This document shows positions 6,220 through 51,585 of a stretch of 64,000 nt of DNA, one piece after another. A program made the position numbers and the translations under genes. Location: positions 8,262,075-8,326,074 of the forward strand of contig OZ004587.1 in NCBI GenBank assembly GCA_963924555.1, read 5' to 3'. Every line of letters starts with the position of its first letter. Position 1 is the first letter of the stretch. Below the pieces are notes generated by a model. That model was not told the DNA's origin and ran no database searches. It worked only from the letters and a program-made list of their open reading frames with translations. Source of the stretch: Crambe crambe (lineage: Eukaryota > Porifera > Demospongiae > Poecilosclerida > Crambeidae).

Positions 6220-9066
<2,847 letters not shown>

Positions 9067-9235
9067 CTTTTCAGTTCGTGGTTGCCTTGCAGTTCTAGCT
9101 CTGTGGCCTTTTTATACACTCCCACACGCATGCGCAGAATCCTACGCATGCGCAAAATGCCGTGCATGATTTTCCCTTTTCGGTAAGCCACGTTGTTATG
9201 TTAAGATCGGCAATTCCACCGTAGAACAAAGAGTT
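9067..9235. promoter_or_regulatory. Divergent promoter with two GCATGCGCA elements
   Basis: The 169 bp between the start codons of a minus-strand SRCR receptor (9066) and a plus-strand divergent-SRCR gene (9236). GCATGCGCA lies at 9128..9136 and 9146..9154, each within an ACGCATGCGCA(G/A)AAT context. NRF1 binds YGCGCAYGCGCR-type palindromes and is common in bidirectional, CpG-type promoters. Shared control of the two genes is inferred. Confidence 0.6.
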
Positions 9236-11342
9236 ATGAGGATATCGATGACGGCGATCGGGGCTGCAGTTTTCTTGCTGCTGTCGGCAGTAACCTGTAT
9301 ATCTTCCTCACTCCCCCCGCCATCCCATGGCGATATCAAACTGGACAATGAAAGCGTCGTCTTGATCTACATGGGACGTGGTTATGAGTACAACGAGAAT
9401 ATGTGGGGGACCATAGAGTTCTATGACTCGCAGTATAGGCCCGAAGTGACGCATACACTCTGTCATCAGCTGGGATACAACGATGGGACTTTATCCGGCC
9501 AGGTTGTAGATGCAACAGAATATGCGAAGTGAGTGGTTAGTTGTATACACTTTGGAATCAGCCACTTTCACTTTATCCTTTGAAGCTTTGAGAGGATCGG
9601 AGGTTCCACTGTATTCTGAGATCTGGAGAGCTATAGCTATAGTTAGCTATAGAAACTTTTTTTTTCCTTCTTCCCTCCGACCTACTATTATTATATTGAT
9701 ACTTGCAGTGTTCCAGTGTGGCTGAAAGATCTAAAATGCACAGAGAGAATGAGTCATATCTTGGGTTGCACACATATAGTTCACCAGGAGAAGTACAGCG
9801 ATCAGCAGATTATAACACTAACATGCTGGAATAAAATTACAGAAAAATATGAAGGCCAAATCAGCCTGTACCGTCCAGATGGTCTACCACCGAGTCAAAG
9901 TGTTTCAACAGGTGTGATTTCTCTCTATAGTGGGAAGGACCCCTATTTCATCCAGGCCGACAAACGACTGACTGCAGAGGCAGCTAACACCATTTGCAGA
10001 CAGATGGGATTCACGGAGTCCCGTCCTGATTCCATCATGAACATCAGCGTGGCTAAATCATCCCTGGGATACACATTTGACACATATTTTTCAAGTGATG
10101 TGTAAGCAGACAATTATTTTTAAATGATGCACTTCACACCCATCAATCGAGAGTCCATCGAATACAATTGATATGTCCCAATACAGTGCAATAATTTAAG
10201 GGATTCTCAGGACATGTTTCATTTGTTATTTTTTCCACAGAACACTTAGTATCAATGCAAGTCTGATAAAATGCTCACAGTCTAGTGAGTGTACTCGTTG
10301 CTGTACCAACAATGCTATTCCACCACAGAACGAAAATCCTGGCCTCCCAAATGGTGCTTTGGTTATTCAATGTGGTGAGTACATGCTAGCTATATCACTG
10401 TCTCAAATTGTGAATTCTTCTTACCCAATTGCAAAAGGCAATGACCTCTTTTCTTTCTCTGAATTAATTCATTAGCTAAGTGTCTTGTTAAATATTACTT
10501 AGTGTTCAATGATGCACCATCTTCACTATCATTGTCATCTGAAGAAACAGAGAAGGAATGTCAGATTTCTGATTCTAAGACCTACAATAATGATGGCCAA
10601 ATATGTATGTGTACAGTATAACTAATCCTCAATCATGCATGGTGAGGTTTAGTGGTTTAGCTAGCTACAAATAACAGGTGCTGTACCTGGCTACCAGTAC
10701 ATGACTGTGGTACCTGTATAGTGCCTGTTAGTTACATGACTTTAACAGCTTGCATGCACCTGGCAATGAAATATTGACACCCAATAGCTAAGTACAATTT
10801 TGCAGCTTTATAGAAAAACTGGAGTTGGGGTAGGAAGTACCACTTTGCTTATAGCTAGTATGGACATAGCTAGCTAGTTACCTCTTCAAAACTGTAGTAG
10901 TGATCTATAATCACATAGAGGTGAAGTGTGCAGGCTAGCTAAGTCTTCCACCATGCAGTGCTTTTCATGAAACAACTGGCTGTGCTAACCAATAATGATT
11001 TCTAACTTAGTCACATGATTAGTGTATCTTTCCCCTCTACTGTATTAACTTGGTCACATGATTATGTTTACAATAATTTATTATACTAAAGGTGGGGCAA
11101 ACTCAGGATTTGTTTCCATGTCAAATGGTGCATTTGCCGGCATGTTAGTTGGAATTTTGCTCGCGGTGATAGCACTTTTGTTGGTAGCGATCATCGTCTA
11201 TAAGATTAGGAGATTCATATACAGACGTGGGTACCAGCAACTACAAAATGGAGGACAGAATGGAGGGAATGGAGGTCATGGTGGACTGAATGGGGGAAAT
11301 GGAGGAAATGGAGGTCATGGTGGCAATGGAGGTGGAGATTAA
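9236..11342 (+). CDS. Divergent two-SRCR membrane protein with Gly-rich tail, copy 1
   Basis: Five exons (9236..9528, 9709..10101, 10241..10374, 10503..10604, 11092..11342) give 390 aa with all phases matching. The signal peptide is MRISMTAIGAAVFLLLSAV. Domain 1 runs from GDIKLD through MWGTIEF and CHQLGY to ILGC and ITLTC. Domain 2 runs from GQISLY through NTICRQMGF to KCSQSS and CTRCCTNN. Both follow the SRCR pattern but are divergent: the Cys expected after WGT(I/V) is missing in domain 1. Exon 4 is a Ser/Glu-rich stalk (SLSSEETEKEC). Exon 5 has a membrane span, a basic stop-transfer (KIRRFIYRR) and a tail of NGGNGG repeats. It is probably a cell-surface protein; the ligand is unknown. Intron 1 holds a decayed MITE shared with copy 3. 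Confidence 0.85.
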
Positions 11343-11556
11343 CACCACTGTAGCTACACTCTAGCTACTGTCTTCCATTTTGTATAAACTTTTTTCTCTT
11401 GGTATGTAATTTTGAACTATAATTCTGGATTCTAATGATTATGAAAAGATGAAACAAAAAAAACAACAAAAAAACAATCAAAAGAAAAACACCAAAACTA
11501 AAAACAACAATTAAACTTAAACCAAAAACAAACAACAGCAACAAAAACGGACTCAC

Positions 11557-11582
11557 GCATGCGCAGAATACTGCGCGTGCGT
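11557..11582. promoter_or_regulatory. GCATGCGCA element upstream of copy 2
   Basis: GCATGCGCA at 11557..11565, followed by GAATACTGCGCGTGCGTA, about 130 bp upstream of the start at 11699. The preceding CGGACTCAC is shared with the elements at 18655 and 20039. Confidence 0.5.
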
Positions 11583-11698
11583 ATAAACCTCATAAATAAA
11601 CCTCAACAACCACAGTCATAATCCCCTGTACAAAGATCTTCAGCAGCTAATTAGCTAATAAGCCGCCAAAACAAAGAGCCAAAACAAAGAGAACAATT

Positions 11699-13936
11699 AT
11701 GTCGATGATGATGATCCAGGCTGCAGCTTTGGTGTTGCTGTTGATCGTAAGTGGTACGTCTTCCATCCCTTCCCCGCTGCCGCCATCCTATGGCGATATC
11801 AAACTGGACAATAACAGCGTGGTATGGATCTACCTGGGACAGGACTATAAGCACAACGACCCGAAAATGTGGGGGCTCATAAATTTCTATAAGTCGCAGA
11901 ACCGGGACGAATTAACGCAAACTCTCTGTCATCAGCTCGGATACGACAACGGAATTTTATCTGGCAAGGTTTTAGATGCAGAGTATGCCAAGTGAGTAAT
12001 CAATCTTTTTCCTACCCACCCACCTCCCCCACCCACACAGACTTATCGATAATAATGATTATTTACTTGCAGTATTCCAGTATGGCTGAGTGATGTGAAA
12101 TGCAAAGAGAAGATGGATCACATTTTGCATTGCTATCATCGCATAGTTAATAACCAGGAAACATACAATAATCAGCGGATTATAACACTAAAATGCCAGA
12201 ATAAGATTGCAAAGAAATATAAAGGCCAAATCAGCTTGTATCCTCCAGATCAACTTCCACCAAATCATAGTGTCTCAACTGGTGTGATTTCTCTCTATGG
12301 TGGGAAGGATCCCTATTTTTTCCCCATAGATGAAACCCTGACTTCAAATGCAGCTGACACCTTTTGCAGACAGATGGGATTCTCAAAGCACATTCCAAAT
12401 TCGATCATGAGCATCAGCGAGGCAGGGCAGCTGGGCTACACATTCGACGATTTCCTAAGTGATGTGTAAGCAAACAAAGGTTCACTTATTTTTATTCACT
12501 ATTGAAAGCACATTTTAGCTGAAGGACACCTAAACTGAGTGATTCTCAAGACATGTTTCTTAATTTTCTTATAATTATCCCAAAAATTTGACTGTATTTG
12601 TTCTTCGTTTCCACAGCACACTTAGCATCAGTGCAAGTCAGATAAAATGCTCGCAATCTTGTGCGTGTACTCGCTGTTGTACCAACAATGCTGTACCACC
12701 GCAGATCGAAAATCCTGGCCCCATAAGTGATGCTTTGTTTATGCGATGTGGTAAGTAGACTGCCTCTCTTATTGGCAAGAATAGTTTTCTGAATTCCTCA
12801 TCTCAAATGTATATAGCTAGTCCCAGGATGTTAGTTTAACAGATTAAAATTTTTGATGGATGCAAAAAGTGAGCTACCCATCATCGAAAGTTCTACTTTA
12901 GCCATGCACTCATTACTTTCTTTAAAAGGTCACTATGAAATAAGGCAATCACCTTTTCTGCTATTTGTACCAACCAGTTGTAAAAGACAATGACAATAAT
13001 TCCCTTTACTCTTTTCCTCTTTCGCTCTCTGAAGCAATCATAGTCTTGTTATGTCCTGTGACATTTTATTTTTAGTGTATGATGATGATGAGTCACCACC
13101 GGTGCCATCTGAGGGAACACAGGAGGAGTGTGAGATTTCTGATTCTCGGACATACACTAACGATGCCACAATATGTAAGTATAATAATTTTATAGGTTGA
13201 GGTTGCTCAACAACAATATATCTGGTGAATAGGTATGTAATAGGCCATGCTGCATGTGTAGTAAATCGCTATCCCAGAATGTCCCTTGCTAGCCAGACAC
13301 TGCACAGTGATGGAATCCAAAGTATAAAATAGCACCCTAGACCCTATGTCACTAGCTAGCTATCATCAAGAATAACACCTGGTGTTATTCTTCAGTGTTT
13401 ATGGAGCAAGTCTGTAAACATTGTGTGTTGTAGTTCTAAATATCTTTGTAGTACATCAGGTATAGCTAACTCCACTACAGTCATATAAAGTAGTAGCTAT
13501 CCAAAAAAGGTGGGAAAGAAGCCAGGTGAATCAGCGAAGTGTTGTGTGCGCGCGCAGGCTATTAAAATCCCTCACATTAAGTGTGTATCTTTCCCTCTCT
13601 TAATGTTATAATAACTAACTTGATCATATGATTTATATTATTATTAAAGGTGGTGCAAAGGACTCTGTCATGACAAAACCACAATTCATTGGCACGATAG
13701 TTGGAGGTGTAGTGGGAGCCGTGCTGATAACAGCTTTGGTGATGGCACTGGTCATCTATGTGAGATACAGATATAAAAAATATCGAAGACGTGATGGATA
13801 CCGGGCAGTTGGTGGAGGTCCCAATGGAGGACCAAATGGAGGACCCAATGGTGGGAACGGAGGCCCCCATGGTGGGAACGGAGGACCCCATGGTGGGAAC
13901 GGAGGTCCCCATGGTGGCAATGGTGGTGGAGACTAA
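11699..13936 (+). CDS. Divergent two-SRCR membrane protein with Gly/His-rich tail, copy 2
   Basis: Exons 11699..11991, 12073..12465, 12617..12750, 13076..13174 and 13650..13936 join in phase to 401 aa. Architecture equals copy 1: signal peptide, GDIKLDNNSVVWIY start of domain 1, CHQLGY, ILHC, LKC; then domain 2 with DTFCRQMGF and CTRCCTNN. The stalk (SPPVPSEGTQEEC) differs from copy 1 and resembles copy 4. The membrane span is followed by a basic RYRYKKYRRRD and a tail of NGGP units with three PHGGNGG repeats, ending GGNGGGD. It is followed by a relic of SMU1 exon 1 (14952) interrupted by a retroelement fragment, so this copy once sat directly in front of an SMU1 gene. Confidence 0.85.
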
Positions 13937-14049
13937 CTGTCCTATTTATGTGTTCTCAACAACTTTGGGGGGAAGTTCTATTACAAAAGTCATTGAGCAA
14001 ACAAAGCACCTTAAAGGGGGGTGAATAAAGGAGGGTGAACCAACTTCTT

Positions 14050-14940
14050 AGAAGTGAATGTACAAGATGATGATAGTAATAATAATGACAAAAATGACTC
14101 TAGAGCGACAAGGTTCCATTGTTTAAGGAATGGTCTCGGCAAGGGCTAAATGAAAATAAAATGAATTATAATTAATGAATAGTGATAAACAAGTAAGATT
14201 AAGGAGGGATTGAGAACCATTCCAAGCTACTTCTCTCCTAGCCATAAAATACACTGGGAGGTGGAGATGGCAATTTTCCCTGAAGCATCCAACAATGATT
14301 TGAATGCATCTTTTTTGATTGAAGGGAATGGTTTGTGTAAGTAGGACATAGTTCCAGGTTGGTGGTGGCCCAAAGCCCTAATTTCTATTGCCAGAAACTT
14401 AGGAGCATAACAACCTTGGGCCTCTAAGTCACTTAGAAGAAGTTCATATTTTTTAGTCTTGAGGTCGTGGGCCTTCTTCATGGACTCCAGTGAGTTGAAG
14501 GGGACAGTTAATTCTAGTATGAACACCTCCTTGTTGTCTCCCACAAATACGATATCAGGTCGAGCCGAGGTCATCAGAATATTCTGGGGGATGGTCGATG
14601 GTGGATTATCTGTGGCCCTGCATCCGTCTAGGTCACCATACAAGTGACCCCAGCCGGAAAGATGTTGTTGCAGGAATGAAAGAATCTTCTGCAGTACACT
14701 ATCATGTCACCAAGTGTAACGACCCTGTGAAAGAGCTGATGGACAGGCATTCAAAATGTGTAGTGTTGTTGGTGTTGGCGAGGAGCAGAGGTAGCAACTC
14801 TTGTCTGTCTTATATCTCCAGCGTGCAAGGTTTAGAGGGGTGGGGAGAGTGTCTGAAGCAGCTCTGATGATAAAGGACAGCTGGTAGGCCTTGACCAAAC
14901 CTTGGTGTCTTTCTCTGGTAAGGATCGTTAAGAGATGTGA
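14050..14940 (-). mobile_element. Decayed non-LTR-type retroelement, C-terminal fragment
   Basis: The minus frame from about 14940 to 14227 reads a Cys/His knuckle-like segment (CYLCSSPTPTTLHILNACP), then QGRYTW, HDSVL, and an RPDIVF...ELTVPF block. I recognise this order from the C-terminal part of reverse-transcriptase ORFs in invertebrate retroelements. A TGA at 14707..14709 interrupts the conserved segment after GRYTW, where a single C-to-T change in an Arg codon would explain it. No reverse transcriptase core remains. It was inserted into the flank between divergent-SRCR copy 2 and the SMU1 exon 1 relic. Confidence 0.65.
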
Positions 14941-14951
14941 GGCTAGCTAGA

Positions 14952-15043
14952 ATGACTTCCCTGGAGATAGAGTCTGCAGAGTAAGTTGGTGCAGCTTTTC
15001 TCCACCCATGAAGTGGTTCTAGTTGTCATTTCTCTGCAGTGTG
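14952..15043 (+). pseudogene. smu1: SMU1 exon 1 relic with intron 1 and four bases of exon 2
   Basis: 14952..14980 matches SMU1 exon 1 (ATG ACT TCC CTG GAG ATA, the MTSLEIESA start with donor GTAAGT). It is followed by intron 1 and the acceptor CTCTGCAG. After TGTG at 15040..15043 the sequence switches abruptly to the ruined SRCR gene. It marks a duplication breakpoint. Confidence 0.85.
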
Positions 15044-16015
15044 GAGTTATAGTTGACGAGACGAACTTGGCCTCTGTAAGGAGTACTCGCAAACCGCATT
15101 GGAAGCTAGAGTTATAATTATAACAATCAATACTGCAGAGCTTCAATGGCTAAAGAATCCACTAGCTGTGAAGAAAGGACTTTAAATTCAGTAGAACCTC
15201 CAAAATTAATCATGGACACAGCCTTTTGTCCTTTGTAGAGAGGTTGTCCAGTTATTTTGTATATAGAGTTTAGATTGTACATATATAGCTAGTTGAAAGG
15301 TTTGTCCTCTTTCAGAGTGTCCGGATCTTGATCCTATTTCAAAAAGGATAACTAGTCCTTGGGTTGGTAAAGGGTTGACCCGCGAGACTATCTAGTCCTA
15401 TTTGCTAGCATGTACGTACGTATACACATACAGTCAAAGTGGGAAAGTTAATTACTAGCTAGATTACAGTTTAGTGTTAATAATTATACTAATTACAATG
15501 CTCTAGTCCAATGCTGGTAGTGGCCATTTTGAGTATCATCTGTTACTACATGATACAAGCTAAACAATTTGCTTTCATGAAAGCATAGCTATGCATGTTT
15601 TATTTGATCAAAGGGACAACTATCATGTGATCATGAGAGCCGATAGCATTAACTATACACCATTTCTCAGGTTTGGGAAGGCAAATGAAAGTGCTCCTCA
15701 TCAGTCCGATGTCTCCATTGGTGTAATTATGTGTGTGCCAACTTGACCTCATCTCCCTCTATCACTTCGAAGAGAAGATGTGGTCATCTTGACCAAAGAA
15801 CTTTCCAAAGTCATAATCTGTATAAAAGAAAGATCTGTAAAGGTCACTAGTCTAAGGTCACACTAGCTATAGCCACCTTCAGGTTTAGTATCCTTTTGGA
15901 GCTGAGATGAATCTCTTCTGGCTATTGCTGGATTCCAACAAGAACCAAAACCAAAATAACACTATATGAAGCCAGTTTGTGGTTGCCCAGTTCTCTGTGG
16001 CCTTTTTATACACTC
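15044..16015 (-). pseudogene. Ruined copy of the two-SRCR receptor at 6220-9066
   Basis: 15044..15555 matches the exon 4 start and intron region near 7331-7870, including the acceptor side of SRCR 2. 15556..15703 matches 8395-8540 but in inverted orientation. 15704..16015 matches 8805-9118, including exon 1. The start codon is lost (ATGGCTTC became CTGGCTTC) and most SRCR sequence is deleted. It stands upstream of divergent-SRCR copy 3 as the intact gene stands upstream of copy 1, so the head-to-head pair was duplicated together and one partner died. Confidence 0.8.
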
Positions 16016-16021
16016 CCTCAC

Positions 16022-16030
16022 GCATGCGCA
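16022..16030. promoter_or_regulatory. GCATGCGCA element upstream of copy 3
   Basis: GCATGCGCA followed by GAATGCCGCGCATGCG, about 97 bp upstream of the start at 16127. This is the duplicate of one half of the divergent promoter at 9128. Confidence 0.5.
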
Positions 16031-16126
16031 GAATGCCGCGCATGCGAAGCTGAAAACCAGGATTTTCCCTTTACGTACGTAACACCATCTTCCACTGTAA
16101 AACAAAGAGTTGGTATTAGTGATCTC

Positions 16127-18563
16127 ATGAAGATATCGATGACGGTGACCGGGGCTGCAGCTTTGTTGCTGCTGTCGGCAGTAACTTGTATGTCTTCCTC
16201 ACTCCCCCCGCCGTCCCACGGCGATATCAAACTGGACAATAATAGCGTTGTCTTGATCTACATGGGACGTGGCTATGAGTACAACGAGAATATGTGGGGG
16301 ACCATAGAGTTCTATAACTCGCAGAATAGGCTCGAAGTGACGAATACACTCTGTCATCAGCTGGGATACAGCGATGGGACTTTATCCGGCGAGGTTGTAG
16401 ATGCAACAGAATATGCGAAGTGAGTGGTTGGTTGTATACAGTGGAACATCCGACATTTTGGAATCAGCCACTTTGTCCCTTGAAGCTTGAGAGGTTGTCC
16501 TTTATTGGAGGTTCCATTGTATCGTAGCTATAGCTATAGCTAGCTATTATCGATATCGTTCTAGAAACATTTTCTTCTTCTTCCCTTTCCTCTACTATTA
16601 TTACAGTATATTGATACTTGCAGTGTTCCAGTGTGGCTGCAAAATATAAAATGCAAAGAGAGAATGAGTCATATCTTGGGTTGTAAACATGATATAGTCC
16701 AGGAGAAGTACAACAATCAGCAGATTATAACACTAACATGCCAGAATAAAATTACAGAAAAATATGAAGGCCAAATCAGCCTGTACCGCCCAGATGGTCT
16801 ACCACCGGATCGAAGTATTTCAACAGGTGTGATTTCTCTCTATAGTGGGAAGGACCCATATTTTATCCAGGCTGACAAACCACTGACTGCAGAGGCAGCT
16901 AACACCATTTGCAGACAGATGGGATTCTCTGAGTCCCTTCCTGATTCTGTCATGAACATCAGTGTGGCTAAATCATCCCTGGGATATACATTTGATACGT
17001 ATTTTTCAAGTGATGTGTAAGCAGACAAGTATAATATTCTAAAATGATGCATGAATGGACCCCCATTAAGTACCCATTGAAATAAGGGATTCTCAGGACA
17101 TGTTTCCTTTAATTAATATTATGCTGACTGTATAGGTATTAGCTATGTCATTAGTTTGTTTCTGAATTCCACAGCACACTTAGTATCAATGCAAGTCAGA
17201 TAAAATGCTCACAGTCTTGCGGGTGTACTCGTTGCTGTACCAAAAATGCTATTCCACCACAGAATGAAAATCCTGGCCCTCCAAATGGTGCTTTGGTTAT
17301 TCGATGTGGTGAGTACATGCTAGCTATATCCCTGCATGTCTCCCTTATTGGTTCCTCAGAAATTTTGAATTCTGGACTTCACATTTACCCTTGTGTGTGA
17401 TTCACGATAATTATAATTATGTTTGCCTTTTCTGTACTAACCAGTTACATAAGGCAATGCCTTCTTTTCTCTGTGTATAGGTCATAATTGTCTTATTAAA
17501 TATTGCTTATAGTGTTCGATGATGCACCATCTTCACTATCATTGTCATCCGAAGAAACAGAGAAGGAATGTCAGATTTCTGAATCTCGGACCTACAATAA
17601 TGATGGTCAAATATGTACGTACAATTTATTTTGGTGGGGGGTTAGTGGCGTAGCTAATAGTATAGTCTAGCAAGTTACCTAGGAGGGAAAATCAATCTCA
17701 GAATGGCCTAAAGTAGATTGTGCCAGTGCAGAATTACTGGGACTTTGGCACAAGTATACATTTTGAGCATAGTGGAGAATAATAGAACTCCTAGCAAAAG
17801 GTGCTAGGAGGCTACAATGTCTTTATTCATGTTTTAATATGATAATTTTTACCAGGCCAGTTTGTAGCAGTGCAGTATATACCTATACCTGCACTGCATG
17901 GCTATAGCTACTGCAGCTTGAACAGCTTGCATGCACCTGGCAATGAATACTGCATGCTATATAGTGACCAATAAGTACAATTATGAAAAACTGACTAAAT
18001 TTTAAGCATAATCACGAGTTGGGGGAGTGTTGTGGTAGGAAGTACCACTTTACTTATATGGACATGGTTATATAGCTACCTCTTCAAGTTTAACTGTACA
18101 ACCACAGAGAGGTGAACGGTGTGCAGGCTATTAGCTAAGTCTTTCAATGGAGTGCTTTTCATGGTTGTACGTATGCTATCTTTCCCAATAATGATTTCAA
18201 ACTTAGTCACATGATTTAGCTATCAATGTTTATGTTTATTTTAGTGTACTGTATTAATAATAACTTTATCACATGATTTTGTTTACTATTAAAGGTGGTG
18301 CAAACTCAGGACTCGTTTCCATGTCAGATGCAAACTTTGCTGGCATGTTAGTTGGAATTTTTTTGGTAACCGTGGTGATAACAGTTTTGGTGGTACTGAT
18401 CATCGTCTATATGAGATACAAACATAGAAGTGGGTACCGGCAACTACCAAATGGAGGACCTAATGGAGGACCGAATGGGGGGAATGGAGGTCCCCATGGT
18501 GGCAATGGAGGTCCCCATGGTGGCAATGGAGGTCCCCATGGTGGCAATGGAGGTGGAGACTAA
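16127..18563 (+). CDS. Divergent two-SRCR membrane protein with Gly/His-rich tail, copy 3
   Basis: Exons 16127..16419, 16624..17016, 17175..17308, 17513..17614 and 18295..18563 give 396 aa in consistent phase. It is the closest relative of copy 1 in both SRCR-like domains and stalk (SLSSEETEKEC). Its tail, however, carries three PHGGNGG units like the other copies. Start MKISMTVTGAA was chosen because it aligns with the ATGs of the paralogues; the frame is open further upstream but that part lies in the ruined neighbour. Intron 1 holds a short MITE (16442..16516) with inverted ends CAGTGGAACATCC / GGAGGTTCCATTG and TA flanks. Confidence 0.86.
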
Positions 18564-18654
18564 CACTTAGTTAGCTACTATAACACTTTTGTCTGTCTTC
18601 CATTATTTGTATTATTATGTTGTGTTCACTCAACAGCTTTTGAAACGGACTCAC

Positions 18655-18663
18655 GCATGCGCA
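18655..18663. promoter_or_regulatory. GCATGCGCA element upstream of the truncated copy
   Basis: GCATGCGCA in the context CGGACTCAC...GAATGCCACGTGG, 31 bp before the ATG at 18694. The same 40-bp block recurs at 20030-20060. Confidence 0.5.
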
Positions 18664-18693
18664 GAATGCCACGTGGGGCTAACTTATAACCCA

Positions 18694-19943
18694 ATGTTGA
18701 GGGTTGTACTCCTCTTGCTTAACTTTGTTGTGCTTGCAACGCAAGATGTGATTCATCTTCTTTTCAACACCTTTTGCAGACAGATGGGATTTACAAAGTA
18801 TATCCCTGAATCGGTCATGAGCATCGCTGATACTTTTCAAAAGCATGACTACACTTTCGACAATTTCTTAAGTGATGTGTAAGCAAAGAAATGATGCATT
18901 TCACAATTGATGGAATCCATTATTAGTGTTCAATGATGCACCATCTTCGTCATCATTGTCATCTGAAGAAACAGAGAAGGAATGTCAGATTTCTAATTTT
19001 CGGACCTACAACAACGATGGCCAAATATGTACGTATATATTAGCTGTATACAATATTATTTCTTCTAGAGTATTATCATGGTGGGGGTTAGTGATGTAGT
19101 TACAGGCCATGCTATGTTTTTAGTTTATAGCAGTTGGGAAAATCATATTCCCTAGGAATTAATGGATTGTGCCAGCAGAATCATTGGGCACATTTTGAGC
19201 ATGAAGCAAGGTGCTAGGAGGCTACAGTGTCTTTATTCATGTTTGATAATTTTACCAGGCCATGCAGTAATTAAGTATTGTACCTATATACCTGTGGCTA
19301 CCATATTATGTAGTAGCTACCCATGAATTGCAGCTGCATGGCAATGAATATTGCATGCTAGTGACACCGCATATTCATAGCCTATTAGGAATAGCTTTTT
19401 ATGGAACATGAGTTTATGGGAGTATTGTGGTACCTGTATGGGAAGTAGCTACCACTTTACTTATTATAGTATAGACATGGTTAGCTACCTCTTCAAAATA
19501 GTAGTAATCTACGTGTGCAGACTATTAGCTAAGTCTTTCAAAAATTTCCATCATGCAGTGGAACGTTTACTGGCTGTATAGCTAGCTATATCTTTCCCAA
19601 TCTTAGTCACATGGTTGTTTTTTAAAATTTTATTTTTGTTTAGGTCACATGATTTGTTTACAATAATTATTATGCTACATGTAAAGGTGGTGCAAACTCA
19701 GGATTCGTTTCCTTGTCAGATGCACACTTTGCTGGCGTGTTAGTTGGAATTTTTGTGGGAACCATGGTGATAACAGTTTTGGTGGTACTGATCATCGTCT
19801 ATATGAGATACAGATATAGACGTGGGTACCAGCGACTACCAAATGGAGGACCGAATGGGGGGAATGGAGGTCCCCATGGTGGGAATGGAGGTCCCCATGG
19901 TGGCAATGGAGGTCCCCATGGTGGCAATGGAGGTGGAGACTAA
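18694..19943 (+). pseudogene. Truncated divergent-SRCR copy with a new signal-like start
   Basis: Only the second half of exon 2 (18770..18880, NTFCRQMGF to FLSDV), exon 4 (18929..19027) and exon 5 (19688..19943, membrane span and three PHGGNGG tail units) remain. Exon 1 and exon 3 are gone. Directly upstream, in frame, ATG at 18694 opens a hydrophobic stretch (MLRVVLLLLNFVVLATQ) that looks like a signal peptide not found in the paralogues. Joining exon 2 to exon 4 creates a phase clash and an early stop (GTT GTT CAA TGA), so a full membrane protein cannot be made. A short secreted peptide ending at the TAA after SDV is possible. Most likely a pseudogene. Confidence 0.65.
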
Positions 19944-20038
19944 CTCTTTGTTAGCTACTGTAACACTTTTGTCTGTCTTGCATTATTATTATTATTATGT
20001 TGTGCATGTTCACTCAACAGCTTTTGAAACGGACTCAT

Positions 20039-20047
20039 GCATGCGCA
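20039..20047. promoter_or_regulatory. GCATGCGCA element in debris
   Basis: A copy of the CGGACTCA..GCATGCGCAGAATGCCACGTGGGGC block, here not followed by a gene start. It is probably carried along by duplication. Confidence 0.4.
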
Positions 20048-20231
20048 GAATGCCACGTGGGGCTATTAGCTAGCTATTCCCATCAGTGCTTTTTGTGCTG
20101 AATATTTACAGTAAGTGTATCTTTCCCTCTCTATGATAATATGATAACATACTATATTTCTAGCTACATTTCTGGTCACATGGCTTTTCAATTCATGCTG
20201 AGCATTTAGTGTAATGATTTTATTCTACTAA

Positions 20232-20458
20232 AGGTGGTTCAAGTTCCATGTTGAATGCACATGAACAATTCACCGGAATGATGATTTGTTGTGTTTTTTT
20301 TGGAGCCATGGTGGTCAGCTTAGCTACATGTAGAGATATAGACGTGGGTATGGGTGACTACCAAATGGAGGACTATTAAATGGAGGACCAAACCCATGAG
20401 GACCAAATGGAGCGAATGGCGGTCCCCATGGTGGCAATGAATGGAGGTGGAGACTAAC
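20232..20458 (+). pseudogene. Decayed membrane-span and tail exon of the divergent-SRCR family
   Basis: Begins after CTAAAG with GGTGGTTCAAGTTCC and ends with GGAGGTGGAGACTAAC, like exon 5 of the paralogues. The hydrophobic core is shortened, the tail has in-frame stops and the reading frame shifts. No other exons are left. Confidence 0.75.
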
Positions 20459-21060
20459 ACTTCTTACTTTTCCTATGCACCAGACCCTATGTCTGTAATT
20501 ATTAGCTATAATATATATCATTCCCTATAGTTGTATTGGAGCATCAATAGTGTCCTCCAAAGCAGAGGTTTGCTGCTCTGAAAAGGTGTTGGTTAGTAGC
20601 AGGGGGAAAAAACACGCTCTGCTGCAGCAGAGGAGGGCTGTACTAACAGAATCAGTTTGCAAGCAGCAGAACCATGCAGTGAGGGAGTTGATTAGCATAT
20701 TTTTTCCACCACTCAAGCCTATCCACTTCAGAAGAACACCATCCACTTTTGCGAGGTAGCTAATAAAGTTTTTAAACAAATAACATTTTGCTTAAATTGC
20801 TGAAAATTAGTTTTAGTATTCTAAAACTAATTTAATAGTAAGCTATAATATCCAAATTACGCCTAAAATGCTTTAAAAATGCTTCAGCACACCTAAAATG
20901 CTCAAATGCTTCCGTGCACCTAACACAGAATACCACGCATACGTAGAACATACTGAAAAATCAGAAATCCCCTTTAGATCTTCAGCAGCTGATAAGCCAC
21001 CAAAACAATGTTTTTTTGGCAGAGGGCCGCGTAGAACAAAGAGCTGGTGTTAGTGATCTC
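20459..21060. other. Spacer before copy 4
   Basis: Contains AT-rich sequence with repeated CTAAAATGCTT motifs near 20865-20930 and a mutated version of the upstream element (CCACGCATACGTAGAA, about 20932). The intact GCATGCGCA is absent here. The open frames at 20525-20779 look like chance. Confidence 0.35.
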
Positions 21061-21856
21061 ATGATGGTATCGATGACAATGATACAAGCTGCAGCTTTGC
21101 TGTTGCTGCTGACAGTAACTTGTTCGTCTTCTTTCTCACTCCCCCCGCCATCCTATGGCGATATCAAACTGGACGATAACGGTGTCGTCTTGATCTACAC
21201 AGAGCATGACTATGATCACCACGAAGATAATGTGTGGATGGCCATAGACTTCTACAACTCCCAGCACCGGGAGGAATTAACGGAAACTCTCTGTCACCAG
21301 CTCGGATACAGCGACGGTATTTTATTTGGCAAGGTGCTAGATACAACAAAGTGAGTGGTGAATCTGTTATATTCTGTAATAAATTAACCCCCCTCCTTCC
21401 CTCCCATATATTATTTTGCAGTGTTTCAGTATATCTGACTGATGTAAAGTGTGAAAAGAAGATGAATCACATCTTACGTTGCAAGCATAAAGCTAAGCAA
21501 GAGGAGTACAGTGCTCAACAGCGGGTTATTGCGCTAACATGCCATAATAAAATTACAAAGAAGTATGAAGGCCAGATCAGCCTGTATCCTCCAGATGGTC
21601 TCTCCCCTTACCAAAGTGTTTCGACTGGGGTGATCTCTCTCTATAGTGGGAAGGACCCCCTTTTTATCATCCAGAATGATGAACCTCCCCTGACCTCAAA
21701 TGCAGCCAACACCTTTTGCAGACAGATGGGATTTACAAAGTATATCCCTGAATCGGTCATGAGCATTGCTGATGCTTATCAAAGGCATGGCTACACTTTC
21801 GACAATTTCTTAAGTGATGTGTAAGCAAAGAAATGATGTATTTCATAATCGATAAG

Positions 21857-21887
<31 letters not shown>

Positions 21888-24165
21888 CTCTCTCCCTCTC
21901 CCTCCCTCCCTCCCTCACCTTAAATGAATGATTCTCAGGATATTTTCATTCCTCTCCTAATAATAGAAGTGTCAACTGTATTGTGTTCGTTTATTTCCAC
22001 AGCACGCTTAGTATCAATGCAAGTCTGATAAACTGCTTGCAATCTTGCCAGTGTACCCGCTGCTGTACAAACAATGTTGTTCCACAGCAGAATGAAAAAC
22101 CCGGCTCTCCAAATGGAGCATTGAGCATTCGATGTGGTGAGTGTTTGGTTTGGATATTATTTCTATTCTACTTGCTATGCCTCCAACTTTGCCTTCATGA
22201 AGAAGTCTCAGAAACATTCAAAATTACCCCACTTTTCGGAATTGTTACTCTAACTTCTTCAATGGTCTCTTTGTGACAAGGAAATCTTTTCGGCTTTCTG
22301 TTTATACTAACCAGTTATAAAAGACAATGACAACAACTCCCTTCTTCCTCTCTCTCTCAAACAATCATTCATTGTCTGTTATCCTTTTTAGTATTCGATG
22401 ATCAAGATTTGCAATCTTCGCACACGTTGACATCTGATGGAACACGGGAGGAGTGTGAGATTTCTGATTCTCAGACATACACTAATGATGCCATAATATG
22501 TAAGTGCTATAACAGCATGGGCATGGGGTAGGAAGATGATGCGAGGTAGGGGTGCTACAATTCCGTGTACTTTCGGGGGGGGGGGGGGGGGCACTGTGAG
22601 AGTGTGAGAAAACAACAACAATAACAACAACTTTAAAAATTTCCAATTCTCCTTTGATTGGTAGAAATAAATTCTCTAGCTACTTTATATTATAATGCTG
22701 TTGCAAGTGGCTGTAGCTGTTTCAAGGGGGTGCTAACTAGGGGTGCTACAAACCAACGTACAGCCTCCAAAATAATACAGCACCCTTAGAGCTAGGGCTA
22801 GGGCTAGGACTAGGGGCTAGAGCTAGGGCTAGGGCTAGGGCTAGGGCTAGACCCTTTCCTACCCCACTGTATAATTATCATTTGGAATGTCCTGAGGTTG
22901 CTCAACAACATATCATGGCGTACCATAGGGCATGCTGTGTATAGTATGTAATATCCCATGCATGCTGTGTTCATTCGGTAGTGTAGTACCTGTGTAACAT
23001 GCCATGCCAGTGTTAATTTGTGTAATTCCGGTAGGCCATGCTGCAGCTGTGTAGTATCATATCTGGTATGATAACTAGAGTTATGTAGGTAGTATATAAT
23101 AATTACCACCATTGATGTAATGGGTCATGTCGTTGTGTTGTGTTAATATTAGCAGTTGGGAAAATCATGTTATAGCTATCATGATTCCCCAGGAGGGAAA
23201 ATAAATCGTGAATACTGTTTGGATCCCAGAATGGCCTTAGCTAGGTAGACTGTCCCCACATAGATTCTGGATGGAATCAAGATCCCTGGGCTTATAATAT
23301 TAATATGCTAGGGTGTTAGGGGCACACTTGAGCATACATACCAATGCAGTGCTACCCGTACCCAGGGGCCCACGTCCACCCAGCCAGCTAGCTACTTCTT
23401 GTAAATGCTGTACGTACTAGACTCCACCTGACCTGTAGCAAATGCTCATGTGCATGTTCTCACATCATCTGCACATGCAGCTGTTAGTTCATGTCAGTAG
23501 CTTTTAGGGCCAATGGCTAGTTACTTCATATATTATAGTTGATTTTAAGAGGGAATCCATTTTGGAGCACTGTGGAAGTATGTTTCCATGACATTAATTG
23601 GGAGTGTTGTGGTACTTGTGAAGTGTCTTTAGTGGTAACTCCACTATAGCAATGAGTATGTTGATAGACATGGCTACCTCTTCAGAAGTATAGTAACCAC
23701 ATTAAAGCTAGGTGAAGTGTGCATGTGTGGGAAGACTATTGAAGCCTCTCAGTGTTTTTCACATTAACGTGTGTATCTTTCCATCCCTTCTAAATGTTAT
23801 TTCTAAGCTAATTAATATTATGGTAAACTAACTTGGTCATATGATTTTGTTTACGATGTATTATTAAAGGTGGTGCAAAGGACTCTATCATGACAAATGC
23901 ACAATTCATCGGTACGATAGTTGGAGGTGTTGCAGGAGCCATAATAATAACAATTTTGGTGGCACTGGCCATAGTCTATGTGAGATACAAATATAAAAAA
24001 GATCGAAGACGTGGTGGATACCAGCCAGTTGGTGGAGGTCCCAATGGAGGACCCAATGGTGGGAACGGAGGCCCCCATGGTGGGAATGGAGGACCCCATG
24101 GTGGGAATGGAGGACCCCATGGTGGGAACGGAGGTCCCCATGGTGGCAATGGTGATGGAGACTGA
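21061..24165 (+). CDS. Divergent two-SRCR membrane protein with Gly/His-rich tail, copy 4
   Basis: Exons 21061..21350, 21422..21820, 22003..22136, 22392..22499 and 23870..24165 give 408 aa in phase. The signal peptide contains AAALLLLLTVTC. Domain 1 has GDIKLDDNGVV, CHQLGY, ILRC and LTC. Domain 2 has NTFCRQMGF and CTRCCTNN. The stalk ends TREECEISDSQ. The tail is the longest in the family, with four PHGGNGG units and the ending GGNGDGD. Intron 2 carries a TC-rich microsatellite and intron 4 a CTAGGG array. Only 193 bp separate its stop from the SMU1 start codon, so the two genes may share a regulatory interval. Confidence 0.86.
21853..21918. repeat. (TC)n/(CCCT)n low-complexity tract
   Basis: CT dinucleotides then CCCT-type units inside intron 2 of divergent-SRCR copy 4. 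Confidence 0.9.
22790..22850. repeat. CTAGGG hexamer array
   Basis: About ten head-to-tail CTAGGG-type units with small interruptions, in intron 4 of divergent-SRCR copy 4. CTAGGG differs by one base from the metazoan telomere unit TTAGGG. Short CCCTAG runs also occur near 31986 and 46782. Confidence 0.8.
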
Positions 24166-24358: not shown

Positions 24359-27300
24359 ATGACTTCACTGGAGATAGAGTCTGCAGAGTAAGTTGGCGCA
24401 AATTTTCTCCACCCATGAGGTGGTTCTAGTTGTCATTTTCTGCAGTGTGATTCGTCTCATCCAACAGTACCTCAAGGAGAACAATCTGCACAGAACGCTA
24501 GCCACTCTCCAAGTCAGTTCCAATTAAAGCACACCAACATCACTAAAATTATCACAAAACATGTCCTGCATGCATGCATATATTAAAGAAGAAATCACCA
24601 TAACGTGGACAGCATTGAAGCATGTATTACTAATGTGTATTTTGATCGGGCAGGAAGAGACCACCATAACGTTGAATACAGTGGACAGTATTGAAGGATT
24701 TGTGTCGGAGATCAACCATGGACACTGGGACACTGTGCTCCAAGTCATACAGTCTCTCAAACTGCCTGATAAGACACTAGTGGACCTTTATGAACAGGTA
24801 AGGTGTGGTCACAATGCTATTTTACATGGAGTAGGCTTAATTTCCTCCGAAAATTATGGCCAATTTTTTTATGTGAACATTATTAGCATTCAAATCTGAA
24901 TCTAAGCATTCAGCATAGTGCCTAAGTTGACTTCAGACTGTTTAAACTCTAATCAGTCATGAATTTTTTTTCCTTTTTCCCCAAGGTATTATTATTATAG
25001 ACTTGTGAAAAATGGCCAAATTTTTTACAAGTCCAATAACACTCAAACATGAATATAATGATTCAGCATGATGCCTTAACTCACTTTTGACCATTGAAAC
25101 AGTCACGAAAAGTTTTCAGAAGTTTCCCAAGGCTTATAGGGAATTATCCGAAAAATGGCCAAATTTTTTTATTACAAGTGAATCCTTGAAGGGTAAGGTG
25201 TGATCCCAATGCTGTGGTCCCTGTTTGTGTCATGCAGATAGTGCTGGAGTTGATTGAGCTGAGGGAACTGGGTGCTGCACGCTCACTCCTGCGTCAGACA
25301 GATCCCATGATTAAGTTGAAGCAGGACAATCCTGACCGCTACTTGCACTTGGAGAACATGCTAGCACGTTCGTACTTTGACCCCAGGGAGGTAAGAGCAT
25401 AAAGCAGAGGATGATATTTTTAATTGGGTAGAATCCGCAAAGATGGAAGTCAACTTTCTATGTTCAAGAAACCTCCCTAGGATTAGGGACTTTTTTCCAG
25501 GGAACCAAACCATACATACTGCTAATACTAATTGAACCCCTGAAGAGTGAAACCCTCATAAGGACAAGAATAGTTGGTCCCAATTTATATTTCAGAAGGC
25601 TCAGTCTCACATCTCAACGGTGTTTGGCCGGATCCACTGTAAACTCCCTTCATTGTGTATCTATCAAAACACGAAACCTTTGACCCTGCGAAATCTACCC
25701 AATATGCGGTATGTTAAAACTGGTTGATGTCTGCCTTGTAGGCATATTCTGAAGGAAGCAGTAAGGAGAAGAGACGTACGGCCATAGCCCATGCTCTGTC
25801 AGGGGAGGTGTCTGTGGTTCCCCCGTCCCGTCTGATGGCGCTGCTGGGTCAGAGTCTGAAGTGGCAGCAACACCAGGGACTCCTCCCACCTGGCTCCGTC
25901 ATCGATCTCTTCCGGTGAGCACCAATAGGGTGGAGGGTAGGGGTGACACCAACTGGGTGGAGGGTAAGCTGGTACCAGTGGTATGGCTTATCCCTTATAA
26001 TTTTATTATCGTCCAATGATAGACAGCAGTATAATTGATTGGTCTGCTGAAAGTATTCTCAGTAGACCATAAATAGTGAGCCTCCTAGAGGGAAACTCCA
26101 ATGTGGTCGCTTCAGTTACCGGTGATTGACTACTGCACATGCTCAGAAAATGGTGTAATTAATCTCTTACAGAGGTTTTCAGGTTGATTGACCAGTAGAA
26201 TTTGCGCATGTGCAAGATAAATTCAAGCGAGCAAAATAATTATACTGTCATTCAAATGCTCATTTTTAGCAAGTACGAATTTAATTCTGCACTGTTGGCA
26301 AATTTTATCTGAGGACCTCTGTATTGCCATTGGTGATCTACTGCACATGCTCAAAAAGGATCAGTATATTGTAACTATTGGTTTCAGAGGTCGTGCTGCT
26401 GTCAAGGATCTTGAGGATGAGAAATACCCAACCTTGCTTGCCAAAACCATCAAATTTGGAACCAAATCTTACCCTGAATGTGCGGCCTTTTCTCCCGATG
26501 GTCAGTATTTGGTGACAGGGAGTGCAGATGGTTTCGTGGAGGTGTGGAATTTCACCACAGGAAAGATAAGGAAGGATCTCAAGTATCAGGCGCAGGTAAG
26601 AACAGGGGTTAGTGCAGAGAGGTAAGAGTGTAAAGAGGTGAGAGTAACAAATTCTACTAATTTTTTAATTCTTTTTCCTCACTATCACACTGCCTAATCC
26701 CTCTACCTGTCCCTCTCTTTCTCCCTTTGCCTCCCTCCCCTCCTTCTTTCTCCCTCCCCTCCTTCCTCTTGTTCCCCTCCCTTCCCTCCTCCCTCCCCTC
26801 CTTCCCTCCCCTCCTCCCTCCCCTCCTCCCCCTCCCTTCCTCCCCTCCTCCCCCTCCCTTCCTCCCTCCCCTCCCCTCCCTCCCCTTCCAGGAGAGTTAT
26901 ATGATGATGGATGATTCAGTGTTGTGCATGGCGTTTAGTGTGGACAGTGAAATGCTGGCCACTGGTTCCCATGATGGCAAGATCAAAGCATGGAAATTGC
27001 TGACTGGGCAATGTTTACGGCGTTTCGAGCGTGCTCACTCCAAAGGGGTGACGTCTGTCCAATTCTCTCGAGACGGGGGGCAGCTCTTGAGTGCTTCATA
27101 TGACCAAACAGTGCGTGTTCATGGACTCAAATCAGGGAAGACGCTGAAGGAATTTAGAGGACACACATCCTTTGTGAACATGGCCATCTTTCTCCCTGAT
27201 TCTCCTCAAGTGCTCTCTGCAAGTAGTGATGGTAGTGTCAAGGTGTGTAGGTCCAGTGATATAAAATCTGAGAACCATTCAGCAAAGAGTATTAATGCCA

Positions 27301-28141
27301 TTTGAAGTTTGAGTGATGAATTTGAGAGTGATCTGGCTGGCCTCCAGATCACTCCAGATCACTCCAGATCACCTGGAGAACCAGTAGTCTGGAGGCCTCA
27401 TCAGACCAGGGTCCAGTGGGGGAGCCTGAGAAAAGCTGGAAATTGATATATTTAATCCTGACTATATTTCTATGCAGCTTTGGAGTTTGAAGACAACTGA
27501 ATGTATCAACACTTTCAAACCAACTATTTCTGGGAGTCAAAGTGATGTGACTATCAACTCTGTTCACCCTTTACCCAAATCCAACGACCAGTTTGTGATA
27601 TGTAACCGTAGCAACACAGTCACCCTCATGAATATACAGGGACAGGTAAAGTTTATGATTAAAGAAGAGCTGGGAAGTCCAAAACACCTCTGTATACAGT
27701 GGAACCCCTTTATTCCAACCCCCTGAAATGGAGACACTTCTTGTATATAGTGGAATTGTGGAATCCTAACCCCCCTCCACTTACTATGGTCATGTTTCTC
27801 ATTGCTCCCCCCCCTCCCCTTTCTCCAGATTGTTCGTAGTTTTAGTTCGGGTAAGCGACAAGGTGGGGACTTTGTGGCATGCATCCTGTCCCCCCGGGGG
27901 GAGTGGATCTACTGCGTTGGAGAGGATCACCTCCTCTACTGCTTTAGCACATCCAGTGGCAAACTGGAACACACCATTGTGGTATGCGGCTAAAAAGCTA
28001 TGATGAAAATACAGCAATAAATAGACCTAATACATTGTGCAGGTTCACGATAAAGATGTGATTGGAATAGTGCACCATCCTCATCAAAACATCATTGCTA
28101 CCTTTGGAGAAGACAGTCAACTCAGACTATGGAAGTCATAA
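24359..28141 (+). CDS. smu1: SMU1, WD40-repeat splicing factor (intact copy)
   Basis: Ten exons: 24359..24387, 24446..24512, 24654..24797, 25238..25390, 25742..25914, 26388..26595, 26892..27242, 27478..27645, 27829..27981, 28043..28141. They sum to 1545 nt, 514 aa; human SMU1 has 513. The N-terminus (MTSLEIESA, then [13 protein letters not shown]) is the LisH/CTLH dimerisation part. The middle contains [13 protein letters not shown] and [18 protein letters not shown]. The C-terminal half carries WD repeats ([48 protein letters not shown]). SMU1 pairs with RED in the spliceosomal B complex in the nucleus. Intron 6 ends in a CCTCCC-rich polypyrimidine tract. It lies 193 bp behind a divergent-SRCR gene and tail-to-tail with a GTPase. 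Confidence 0.96.
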
Positions 28142-28691
28142 TTGGTTTTTGTATGTATATAGCTAACCTTTCAACTTTAATAGCTTCACTTGAGAACATT
28201 TACTATCACTGCAGCCTGGGTGAGAGTTGGCTGAGATTTCTATTGTAGCTATGTACAATATCTTTCTGCGACTAAACATTATGTGCATGCCATTTCCTTC
28301 AGAGACATGACATTGTACATTTAACACATGCACAATCCACCATGCACAACCAACATCTATAACTACATTGATCAGGTCACCCCACAATGCCCTGCTGCTG
28401 CATTTCTCTAGCATAACCTGTTCTCGCAATTTAATTTACTCACTGCACATTTACCTAATTAGGCACTACATCATTATCTAAGCTCATAACAAGATTAATA
28501 AGTCACAGTTGTCTGCACATTTGATTGTCAGTGGGTGTAGTATGCATTATTGTATAGCTACTCAAATTAATGAGCCACTACTCTGTGACTTATTTGTTAG
28601 CTTTTCCTCCCACACAAACTCAGCCAGTAAAAAAAAAAAGAAGGTAGACTTAAAAAAATGACAGCCTCATGAATCTTAGAGAGGTTTGTAG
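28142..28691. other. Tail-to-tail spacer between SMU1 and the GTPase
   Basis: No gene seen. Its 28160-28480 part recurs, degraded, at 31770-31990, and almost unchanged at 55405-55740. Confidence 0.5.
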
Positions 28692-29546
28692 CTAACTTTT
28701 ATATCTAGAAAGTATATATACTGTTATGAAACACATTGCGGAAAATGAAGAAAAAATCATAAAAGAAGGACTCAGAATAAACTTCTTGAACCTATTAGAA
28801 TTATTATCTATGTGAATTTTTTCAAAGCCTTTCACAGCATTGCACATTTTTTGCATAACTTCAGCTGTTTCTTCAAATGATTTCTTCAACTTTTGAACTA
28901 TCAAATCTTCAGAAAGTTGCCCACGCCTTTCTCGTGCTTTAGCAAGTAAACTGTATGGGTTATCAATACAGAATGTCCTATCTGTGTCAATCTGATACCC
29001 AAAATATGTCTGAAATTCATTTAGATCAAAATTCAGATCTAGTTCACTGGAAGTGTTTGTAAAGACAATGATGAGGTTTTTGGAAATTGCCCTTGGCAGA
29101 ATGGAGGCTATTTGTGTGAGGACGTACTTCAAATCAGCAGTGTTACGAGATAGGCGGCCATTGATAACCAAGCAAACACAGTTAATGTATTTCTCTTCTC
29201 TAATGCAAGAAATCACTTTATTAATATTTTCTTTGTCCTGTTCTATGCCTCTGGAGTCACCAAAGCCGGGCGTGTCGATAATCCCCCAACTCATCCCGCA
29301 TAATTCAACTTGGTACAATTTAGCACCACTGGTCTTGCTTTGCATAGGGTGTGATGCTGCATTTTCCAACTGAATGTCATTGAAATCTTGGAAACTATCG
29401 AGCTTATAGTCAAAGTTACTTCCAATTGTTTGTATGACGGCTGTGTTACAGATAAGGTTGAGAAAAGAAGTCTTCCCTGATCCAGTTTCTCCAACCAGCA
29501 ACATTTTATACTCCCTTGACTCACATAACCTCCTTAACAACGACAT
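28692..29546 (-). CDS. Short AIG1/GIMAP-like GTPase with C-terminal membrane anchor, copy a
   Basis: 284 aa from the ATG at 29546; the same ATG is kept in the duplicate at 56789. The frame is open 11 codons further, but that part follows a TTGTTGCAG acceptor-like site, so an upstream exon is possible. P-loop GETGSGKTS at residues 19-27, switch II DTPGFGDSRG at 91-100, and a VFTN motif in the place of the usual TKxD. The last 22 residues are hydrophobic (FSSFSAMCFITVYIL) and end RYKS, which fits a tail anchor. GIMAP-type GTPases oligomerise on membranes and are tied to immune cells or defence in animals and plants. The exact subfamily and cellular membrane are unknown here. Confidence 0.8.
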   Translation of the reverse strand: MSLLRRLCESREYKMLLVGETGSGKTSFLNLICNTAVIQTIGSNFDYKLDSFQDFNDIQLENAASHPMQSKTSGAKLYQVELCGMSWGIIDTPGFGDSRGIEQDKENINKVISCIREEKYINCVCLVINGRLSRNTADLKYVLTQIASILPRAISKNLIIVFTNTSSELDLNFDLNEFQTYFGYQIDTDRTFCIDNPYSLLAKARERRGQLSEDLIVQKLKKSFEETAEVMQKMCNAVKGFEKIHIDNNSNRFKKFILSPSFMIFSSFSAMCFITVYILSRYKS

Positions 29547-29919
29547 ATCACTCCAATCAGTTTTGTCCTTCTGCAACAAAAAATGTATATCATGCAGGAG
29601 ACATCAATTCCAGGGGTAATAAACTATAACATACCCAGCCTGCTCATGGCACTAGCTACATAATAATCACTCCTTGTGCATTTTTGGGCACTGCATTTTT
29701 GAGATGTATGTGTACAGACACTGACTTTGGAACTAAGACAGCTGTGCTGTGAATCTATATTTGTATAATTCTGCTATCTTTATGGAAAGAAAGTTGTACT
29801 GTTATTATAGTACACTTGAGTCACCAGATTGCAATGTTATGTTTAGTGAATCTATATTTGTGCTATCTGTTACTACACTCAAGTCACCAGATCGCTAAAT
29901 TATTTACACTCAAGTCAAG

Positions 29920-46539: not shown

Positions 46540-46650
46540 GTGAGTATTATAAGTATTACAAGGTTTTTCACTATCACTGCTTTATGTAATAATTATTTAG
46601 TTCACTCTTTACCTAGCTCTAAGTGTTTTAATGCGCCTGCACAAGAATGA

Positions 46651-47850: not shown

Positions 47851-47938
47851 TAACAACTCTTAGTGTGCACTGAGGGTTAGCACTTCAGTGCTTTTCACTA
47901 TAGCTCTATATTGATTCAACTTCTCAAATCCATTACAG

Positions 47939-51240: not shown

Positions 51241-51337
51241 TTCCACAGTGCTCCAAAATGTTAAAATGATACTAGTTACAGTGGCGGGTTCAGGATGTGA
51301 GAAAGGGGGTTACAGAAAGGGGCTATTCATATGATTT

Positions 51338-51585
51338 TGTTTACTTATTAAAGGTGGTGCAAAGGACTCTGTCATGACAAAATCACAATTCATCGGTGCG
51401 ATAGTTTTGTAGCAGCCATACTAATAACATTAATGGTGGTACTGGTCATAGTCGGTGTGAGATGCAAATACAAAGACGTGATGGATATCGGCCAGTTGGT
51501 GGAGGTCCCAATGGAGGACCAATTCCCCATGGTGGGAATGGAGGACCCCATGGATTGGTGGGAATGGTGATGGAGACTGAACTTC
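51338..51585 (+). pseudogene. Decayed membrane-span and tail exon of the divergent-SRCR family, second copy
   Basis: Matches exon 5 of the copy at 23870 (AAAGGACTCTGTCATGAC, GGTGGAGGTCCCAATGGAGG) with internal deletions that shift the frame and shorten the tail. It is followed, as in the original, by the SMU1 start. Confidence 0.85.

Follow-up and report, generated by a model that had tools for sequence, protein, structure and literature searches.

What do four tandem genes of a sponge encode whose products look like membrane receptors, and do they stand alone or belong to a known family? The genes, g1 to g4, lie on the plus strand of a 64-kb stretch of the Crambe crambe genome (the window, C10:8262075-8326074 of the 143-Mb genome; positions without a prefix are those of the window), and an earlier note on this DNA had described them as a tandem family with two highly divergent SRCR-like domains and an unfamiliar build. 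They very probably arose by tandem duplication of a gene for a divergent type I membrane receptor with two SRCR domains. Profile evidence favours SRCR for their domains, and an SRCR identity and origin of these receptors can be assigned with high confidence from sequence.

The four gene models, based on splice sites, follow one five-exon plan: g1 (9236-11342, 390 amino acids, aa) has exons 9236-9528, 9709-10101, 10241-10374, 10503-10604 and 11092-11342; g2 (11699-13936, 401 aa) has exons 11699-11991, 12073-12465, 12617-12750, 13076-13174 and 13650-13936; g3 (16127-18563, 396 aa) has exons 16127-16419, 16624-17016, 17175-17308, 17513-17614 and 18295-18563; and g4 (21061-24165, 408 aa) has exons 21061-21350, 21422-21820, 22003-22136, 22392-22499 and 23870-24165. 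All 16 introns are GT-AG and their phases are 2, 2, 1, 1 in every gene, which bears out the strict plan with identical phases claimed for four intact genes. Exon 1 (293 bases in g1 to g3, 290 in g4) encodes the signal peptide and the first half of domain 1 (D1), exon 2 (393 bases in g1 to g3, 399 in g4) the rest of D1 and the first half of domain 2 (D2), exon 3 (134 bases throughout) the rest of D2, exon 4 a stalk with two cysteines, and exon 5 the transmembrane segment (TM) and the tail. By hydropathy, each protein has an N-terminal signal-like segment and a single TM, located between residues 313 and 352; identity to g1 is 62% for g2, 84% for g3 and 63% for g4.

SRCR identity of the two domains

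On the full proteins, the Pfam SRCR profile (PF00530, cut-off 26.1 bits) scores 41.1 bits in g1, 39.5 in g2, 40.9 in g3 and 33.2 in g4, above the cut-off in all four, and D1 taken alone also exceeds it in all four. D2 taken alone reaches it in none, though PF00530 and Hepsin-SRCR each have one weak match there (E=0.031 and E=0.025, respectively); the expectation that standard profile searches may miss the family is thus right for the isolated D2 and wrong for the whole proteins. For D2, the assignment comes from profile-profile comparison (hhalign) with relatives in the same genome, namely the neighbouring gene M1 and two families, II and III, described below. The D2 profile of g1-g4 matches the second domains of II and M1 at 95.7% (44 columns), the second domains of III at 96.1% (105 columns) and all II and M1 domains at 96.3% (51 columns, in the first half of the domain), whereas 20 column-shuffled D2 profiles do not exceed 3.1% with the full set of II and M1 domains or 2.0% with the second domains of that set. 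With Pfam on D1 and this comparison for D2, the description as a tandem family with two SRCR-derived domains is upheld, and the profile-profile check proposed for D2 comes out in its favour. In all four genes a phase-2 intron lies within D1 and another within D2, spreading each domain over two exons, as is the case for group A SRCR domains (PMC3100851). A profile search of the PDB finds six sequences at E<=0.1, all CD163, the best at 1e-6 on the whole chain; no individual domain is significant alone (best i-Evalue among the matches listed 5.0).

Several points weigh against an SRCR assignment of D2, besides its failure to reach the Pfam cut-off alone. Its hhalign link to II and M1 is confined to roughly the first half of the domain, and the second domain of III, which provides the best link, is itself below the Pfam cut-off (17.8 bits). 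The model predicted for exon 2 by itself (130 aa, from an alignment of four rows) is uninformative, with a mean pLDDT of 35. In hhalign, a direct comparison of D1 with D2 of g1-g4 yields no more than 13-18%; the SRCR link of D2 thus runs through the relatives, whose second domains are well above the cut-off in M1 (72.0 bits) and in L038 of family II (49.9 bits). The Pfam result for D2 alone would suit a new fold or domain family, SRCR-like only in its C(R/H)Q(L/M)G(Y/F) core, but the Pfam matches of D1, the hhalign scores with their shuffled controls, the co-linear alignment with relatives that keep the full cysteine set, and the common loop and phase of the introns render such a fold extremely improbable. 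An isolated orphan family was rejected on the Pfam SRCR matches, the relatives in the genome and the hhalign links; the earlier claim of novelty mostly falls, the same architecture being found in the adjacent M1 and in families II and III.

Relatives and cysteine pattern

M1 (6220-9066, minus strand) encodes a two-SRCR type I receptor and lies head-to-head with g1, the two ATGs being 170 bases apart. Its seven exons (9066-8964, 8907-8589, 8431-8286, 7402-7192, 7013-6883, 6707-6645 and 6365-6220; the GT donor of exon 6, at 6645, is placed by eye, with the phase unaffected) are separated by introns of phases 1, 2, 1, 2, 1, 1, and its product has a Pfam SRCR match at E=9.3e-37, all group A cysteines and a tail ending in RYEELN. 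A genome search with g3 gives strong matches within the window only; residues 16-210 have a distant match on C8 (E=1.3e-7, 30%), which belongs to family II, and four further matches, two of them outside the window, have E-values from 1e-4 to 0.003. In family II, whose members lie at C8:7.898-7.922 Mb and at C5:2.046-2.048 Mb and have partial relatives in other places, one reading frame stays open over the whole gene, from the signal peptide through the tail; family III, with seven D1 matches at C8:7.537-7.645 Mb, has the same build across several exons. The genome is rich in SRCR domains, with at least 175 matches at E<=0.001 (150 of 2833 candidates scored), and all counts for this large family are lower bounds. 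One further locus (L051, C17:1504169) is a single open frame of 789 aa in which three SRCR domains can be read by eye, followed by a TM and a long tail rich in Ser and Pro.

The alignment comprises 15 models: g1-g4, M1, six of family II (L038, L039, L041, L042, L043, L049) and four of family III (L068, L069, L071, L073). Left out were L040, L044-L048, L050 and L052 of family II, which are interrupted, partial or incomplete, as well as L051 for its three domains, and the incomplete L070, L072 and L074 of family III; weaker family II matches stayed outside the modelled set, and one more III locus, L037, was covered partially. The tails of L069 and L071 were counted on TM exons of L034 and L033, loci that overlap them; these exons were assigned by position rather than spliced in.

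All aligned models share the order signal peptide, SRCR, SRCR, stalk, TM and tail, and they align co-linearly. A phase-2 intron occupies the loop before cysteine C5 of each domain in g1-g4 and M1 alike: among the residues that follow the split codon, C5 of D1 and D2 is number 10 and 11 in g3 and number 17 and 13 in M1. A phase-1 intron immediately after C8 has the identical place in g1-g4, M1 and III. Two introns of M1, one following the signal peptide and one separating the domains, are absent from g1-g4, and III (L069, read by eye, with junction residues uncertain) has introns between the domains and inside D2 and none inside D1. A tree groups g1-g4 with III against II and M1 (87/90, not starred; unrooted, with long branches flagged), a grouping that is likely on the sequences compared. 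Altogether, g1-g4 seem to have branched off from an ordinary receptor family that has other members in this genome, the neighbouring gene among them.

Group A SRCR domains follow the same disulfide pairing scheme as group B. For the latter, it is stated as C1-C4, C2-C7, C3-C8 and C5-C6 (PMC3100851). In the alignment, C2 of D1 is absent from g1-g4 (0/4) and III (0/4) and present in M1 (1/1) and II (6/6); C7 of D1 is absent from g1-g4 (0/4) and present in M1 (1/1), II (6/6) and III (4/4); for both cysteines the counts in D2 are identical. C3 and C8 are present in both domains of all 15 models, as is C5, except that in D2 of III it aligns three columns later; C6 is present in D1 of all 15 and, in D2 of g1-g4, falls inside a CTRCC cluster. 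Since C2 and C7 are known disulfide partners, g1-g4 are without both ends of one disulfide, and this in both domains. They thus have neither the six cysteines of group A (C2-C7, C3-C8, C5-C6) nor the set of group C (these six and an extra C1), and receptors of the g1-g4 type fall outside the published cysteine classes A, B and C. Family III has extra cysteines near the first strand, which could replace the lost C2 end.

The cysteine that follows WGT in ordinary SRCR domains is absent from D1, and from the corresponding column of D2, in all four proteins; what had been said of its absence thus holds for both domains, but literally for D1 alone, the WGT motif itself being missing from D2. The CTRCC cluster, also singled out earlier, is present in D2 of all four, but as an unusual feature it is not supported, cysteine clusters occurring at the same columns in M1 (CFKSC), II (CLNGC, CLSSC, CLRSC, CLSGC or CLSHC) and III (CFGCC). 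Its first and last cysteines are common to all 15 models, and its middle one is found in each of the eight g and III models and in none of the seven of M1 and II. D1 has four cysteines in g1-g4, D2 has six in g1 and seven in g2-g4, and the mature ectodomain has 12 in g1 and 13 in g2-g4.

What sets g1-g4 apart is that both domains have lost C2 and C7, its partner, and that three of the four tails carry GGPHGGN repeats. One genome holds an apparent stepwise series, from the full set (M1, II) through loss of one end with gain of other cysteines (III) to loss of both ends (g1-g4); the loss runs parallel in both domains and provides a natural series for asking on which of the SRCR disulfides fold and binding depend.

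Selection, tail and possible function

The absence of C2 and C7 from both domains would also be expected of decaying or decoy copies, in which cysteines are lost under relaxed constraint and the cluster is heading for pseudogenes. Three broken copies or fragments do lie in the window, all on the plus strand: a degraded copy at about 18686-19943, which retains exon 4, an open exon 5 and a portion of exon 2, includes a short inverted piece (18686-18766) and has no match to exon 1 or exon 3 at E<=1e-10 over at least 80 bases; an exon-5-like remnant at about 20233-20460, with stops and a broken frame; and an exon-5 copy with a broken frame at 51327-51553. The last lies beside the second copy of a segmental duplication of about 5 kb (24944-29917 and 52173-57164, 97.6% identity). 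The tail repeat is minisatellite-like, and for D1 alone the ratio of nonsynonymous to synonymous divergence (dN/dS) between g1 and g3 is 1.23, on few changes (dN 0.086, dS 0.070); this value and the stalk ratios of up to 0.96 count against purifying selection. Over D1 and D2 together, however, dN/dS is 0.26-0.52 in the six pairs, and dN>=dS came up in 0 of 500 bootstraps for each of five pairs and in 7 of 500 for g1-g3: selection over both domains is purifying. With four intact frames, GT-AG at every intron, and lost cysteines that pair with each other in a known disulfide, decay is a quite unlikely account of the cluster.

After the TM, g1-g4 have basic juxtamembrane residues, a GYxx(L/V) motif and then a glycine-rich tail. 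The motif (GYQQL in g1, GYRAV in g2, GYRQL in g3, GYQPV in g4) is a membrane-proximal YxxPhi sequence, Phi being hydrophobic, and YxxPhi also follows the TM in M1 (RYEEL), in three of the six II models (YQPI, YQNV, YRAV) and in three of the four III models (YNNI, YNNI, YENI). At the C-termini of LAMPs, GYXXPhi is a lysosomal signal (PMC9221867). The tail had been described as rich in glycine and histidine; it is glycine-rich in all four, but PHGG-type repeats occur in three, with three GGPHGGN units in g2, three in g3 and four in g4. The g1 tail has none and is Gly/Asn/His-rich, with G-rich repeats of shorter period in their place. At the DNA level the unit forms a 21-bp coding tandem repeat on the plus strand (13838-13917 in g2, 18462-18554 in g3, 19842-19934 in the degraded copy, 24046-24146 in g4), and a degenerate pattern for it has 14 exact matches in the genome (very common words skipped), all within the cluster: three each in g2 and g3, three and one in two degraded copies, and four in g4. 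None of the 11 models of M1, II and III has the unit, two of the III models being without a tail there.

The reading that best suits these features is endocytic recognition. The ectodomain would bind a ligand outside the cell, which may be microbial surface material; the membrane-proximal tyrosine motif would recruit clathrin adaptors and thereby bring receptor and cargo to endolysosomes; and tandem duplication with altered domain surfaces would yield a small set of receptors of differing specificity. Three observations weigh against such a role. Four of the 15 models lack YxxPhi, three of II (two with YESA, one with YKQR) and one of III (with YNRQ); in g1-g4, 32-44 residues come after the motif, which is thus not C-terminal as in LAMPs; and the bacteria-binding stretch of DMBT1 (described in PMC3100851) is not recognisable in g1-g4, so that bacterial binding is without motif support. 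A close counterpart of this stretch is present in D2 of M1 (GRVEVYQGQAW), and its presence there and not in g1-g4 suggests that the ligand surface may have changed. The same observation would suit adhesion or self-recognition receptors, with the repeat tail acting as a cytoplasmic spacer or docking segment; SRCR domains serve in adhesion too (PMC4491621), and the odd cysteine number (13) of the mature ectodomain in three of the four proteins makes covalent dimers possible. Adhesion is nevertheless doubtful, if the strongest of the alternatives, since 11 of the 15 models carry a tyrosine motif in the corresponding position behind the TM. Endocytic recognition, as judged from these motifs, may be given an even chance, and the whole explanation, tandem divergent two-SRCR receptors that serve it, is rather probable.

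His/Gly repeats bind Cu or Zn in some other proteins. It is conceivable, if improbable, that the SRCR domains are stable without C2-C7, that III re-pairs C7 with a new cysteine, and that the cytosolic GGPHGGN repeat binds Cu or Zn so that metal or pH tunes receptor trafficking; the lack of GGPHGGN in g1 makes this slightly less probable still.

The region shared upstream by M1 and g1 (9067-9235), with two GCGCATGCG-type cores (9127, 9145), is duplicated before g3: 8797-10400 recurs as 15701-17334 (82%), and a neighbouring piece of M1 lies inverted near g3 (8401-8543 vs 15557-15702, 95%). The duplicated unit seems to have been a bidirectional gene pair. Only six GCGCATGCG/CGCATGCGC cores, which presumably resemble NRF1-type sites, occur in the 64 kb, all in the cluster (9127, 9145, 11556, 16021, 16038, 18654) and five of them directly upstream of g1/M1, g2 and g3. 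Immediately before the acceptor of the last M1 exon there are about 240 bases of CT repeat (minus strand, about 6369-6606), and the last intron of g4 contains an array of TAGGGC hexamers (22787-22851). Elsewhere in the window, six long open frames with GETGSGKTSFLNLICN (28692-29603, 37906-39450, 42827-43735, 47915-49366, 55935-56834 and 58979-60568) are what we take to be candidate GTPases of the AIG1/GIMAP type, and an open frame at 45463-46650 looks like that of a protein kinase whose tail is charged.

Comparison with known systems

With group A SRCR proteins (PF00530), g1-g4 share the CRQLG-type core, C3, C5 and C8 in both domains and C6 in D1, the encoding of each domain by two exons, and a receptor build with signal peptide and TM; they differ by the absence of C2 and C7, the CxxCC of D2, and the glycine-rich tail, with GGPHGGN in three of the four genes. 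Searches of an open-access library yielded, among the papers listed, nothing on their cysteine pattern or tail, and no paper on SRCR domains with four cysteines or on sponge SRCR proteins with tyrosine-based endocytosis. Expanded sponge SRCR receptors, as the wider setting, are already known: Amphimedon queenslandica has 296 SRCR genes, 158 of them in tandem and some with two SRCR domains, and a seven-cysteine Group C with an added cysteine; three exons encode an SRCR domain there (PMC10855680). The tandem arrays, two-SRCR genes, changing exon-intron plans and altered cysteine counts of these expansions are like those seen here; compared by description only, they differ in that cysteines are gained and three exons encode a domain, whereas g1-g4 lose two cysteines and use two exons. 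The tails of LAMPs are alike in having basic juxtamembrane residues followed by GYxx(hydrophobic) (PMC9221867); their ectodomain is unrelated, and in g1-g4 the motif is followed by the residues noted above. The nearest likeness is to M1, II and III, which share with g1-g4 the two SRCR domains after a signal peptide, the stalk and TM, a short tail mostly with YxxPhi, and the cysteine cluster of D2; III is also without C2 and has CxxCC. M1 and II differ from g1-g4 in keeping C2 and C7, and III in keeping C7 and having extra cysteines near strand 1.

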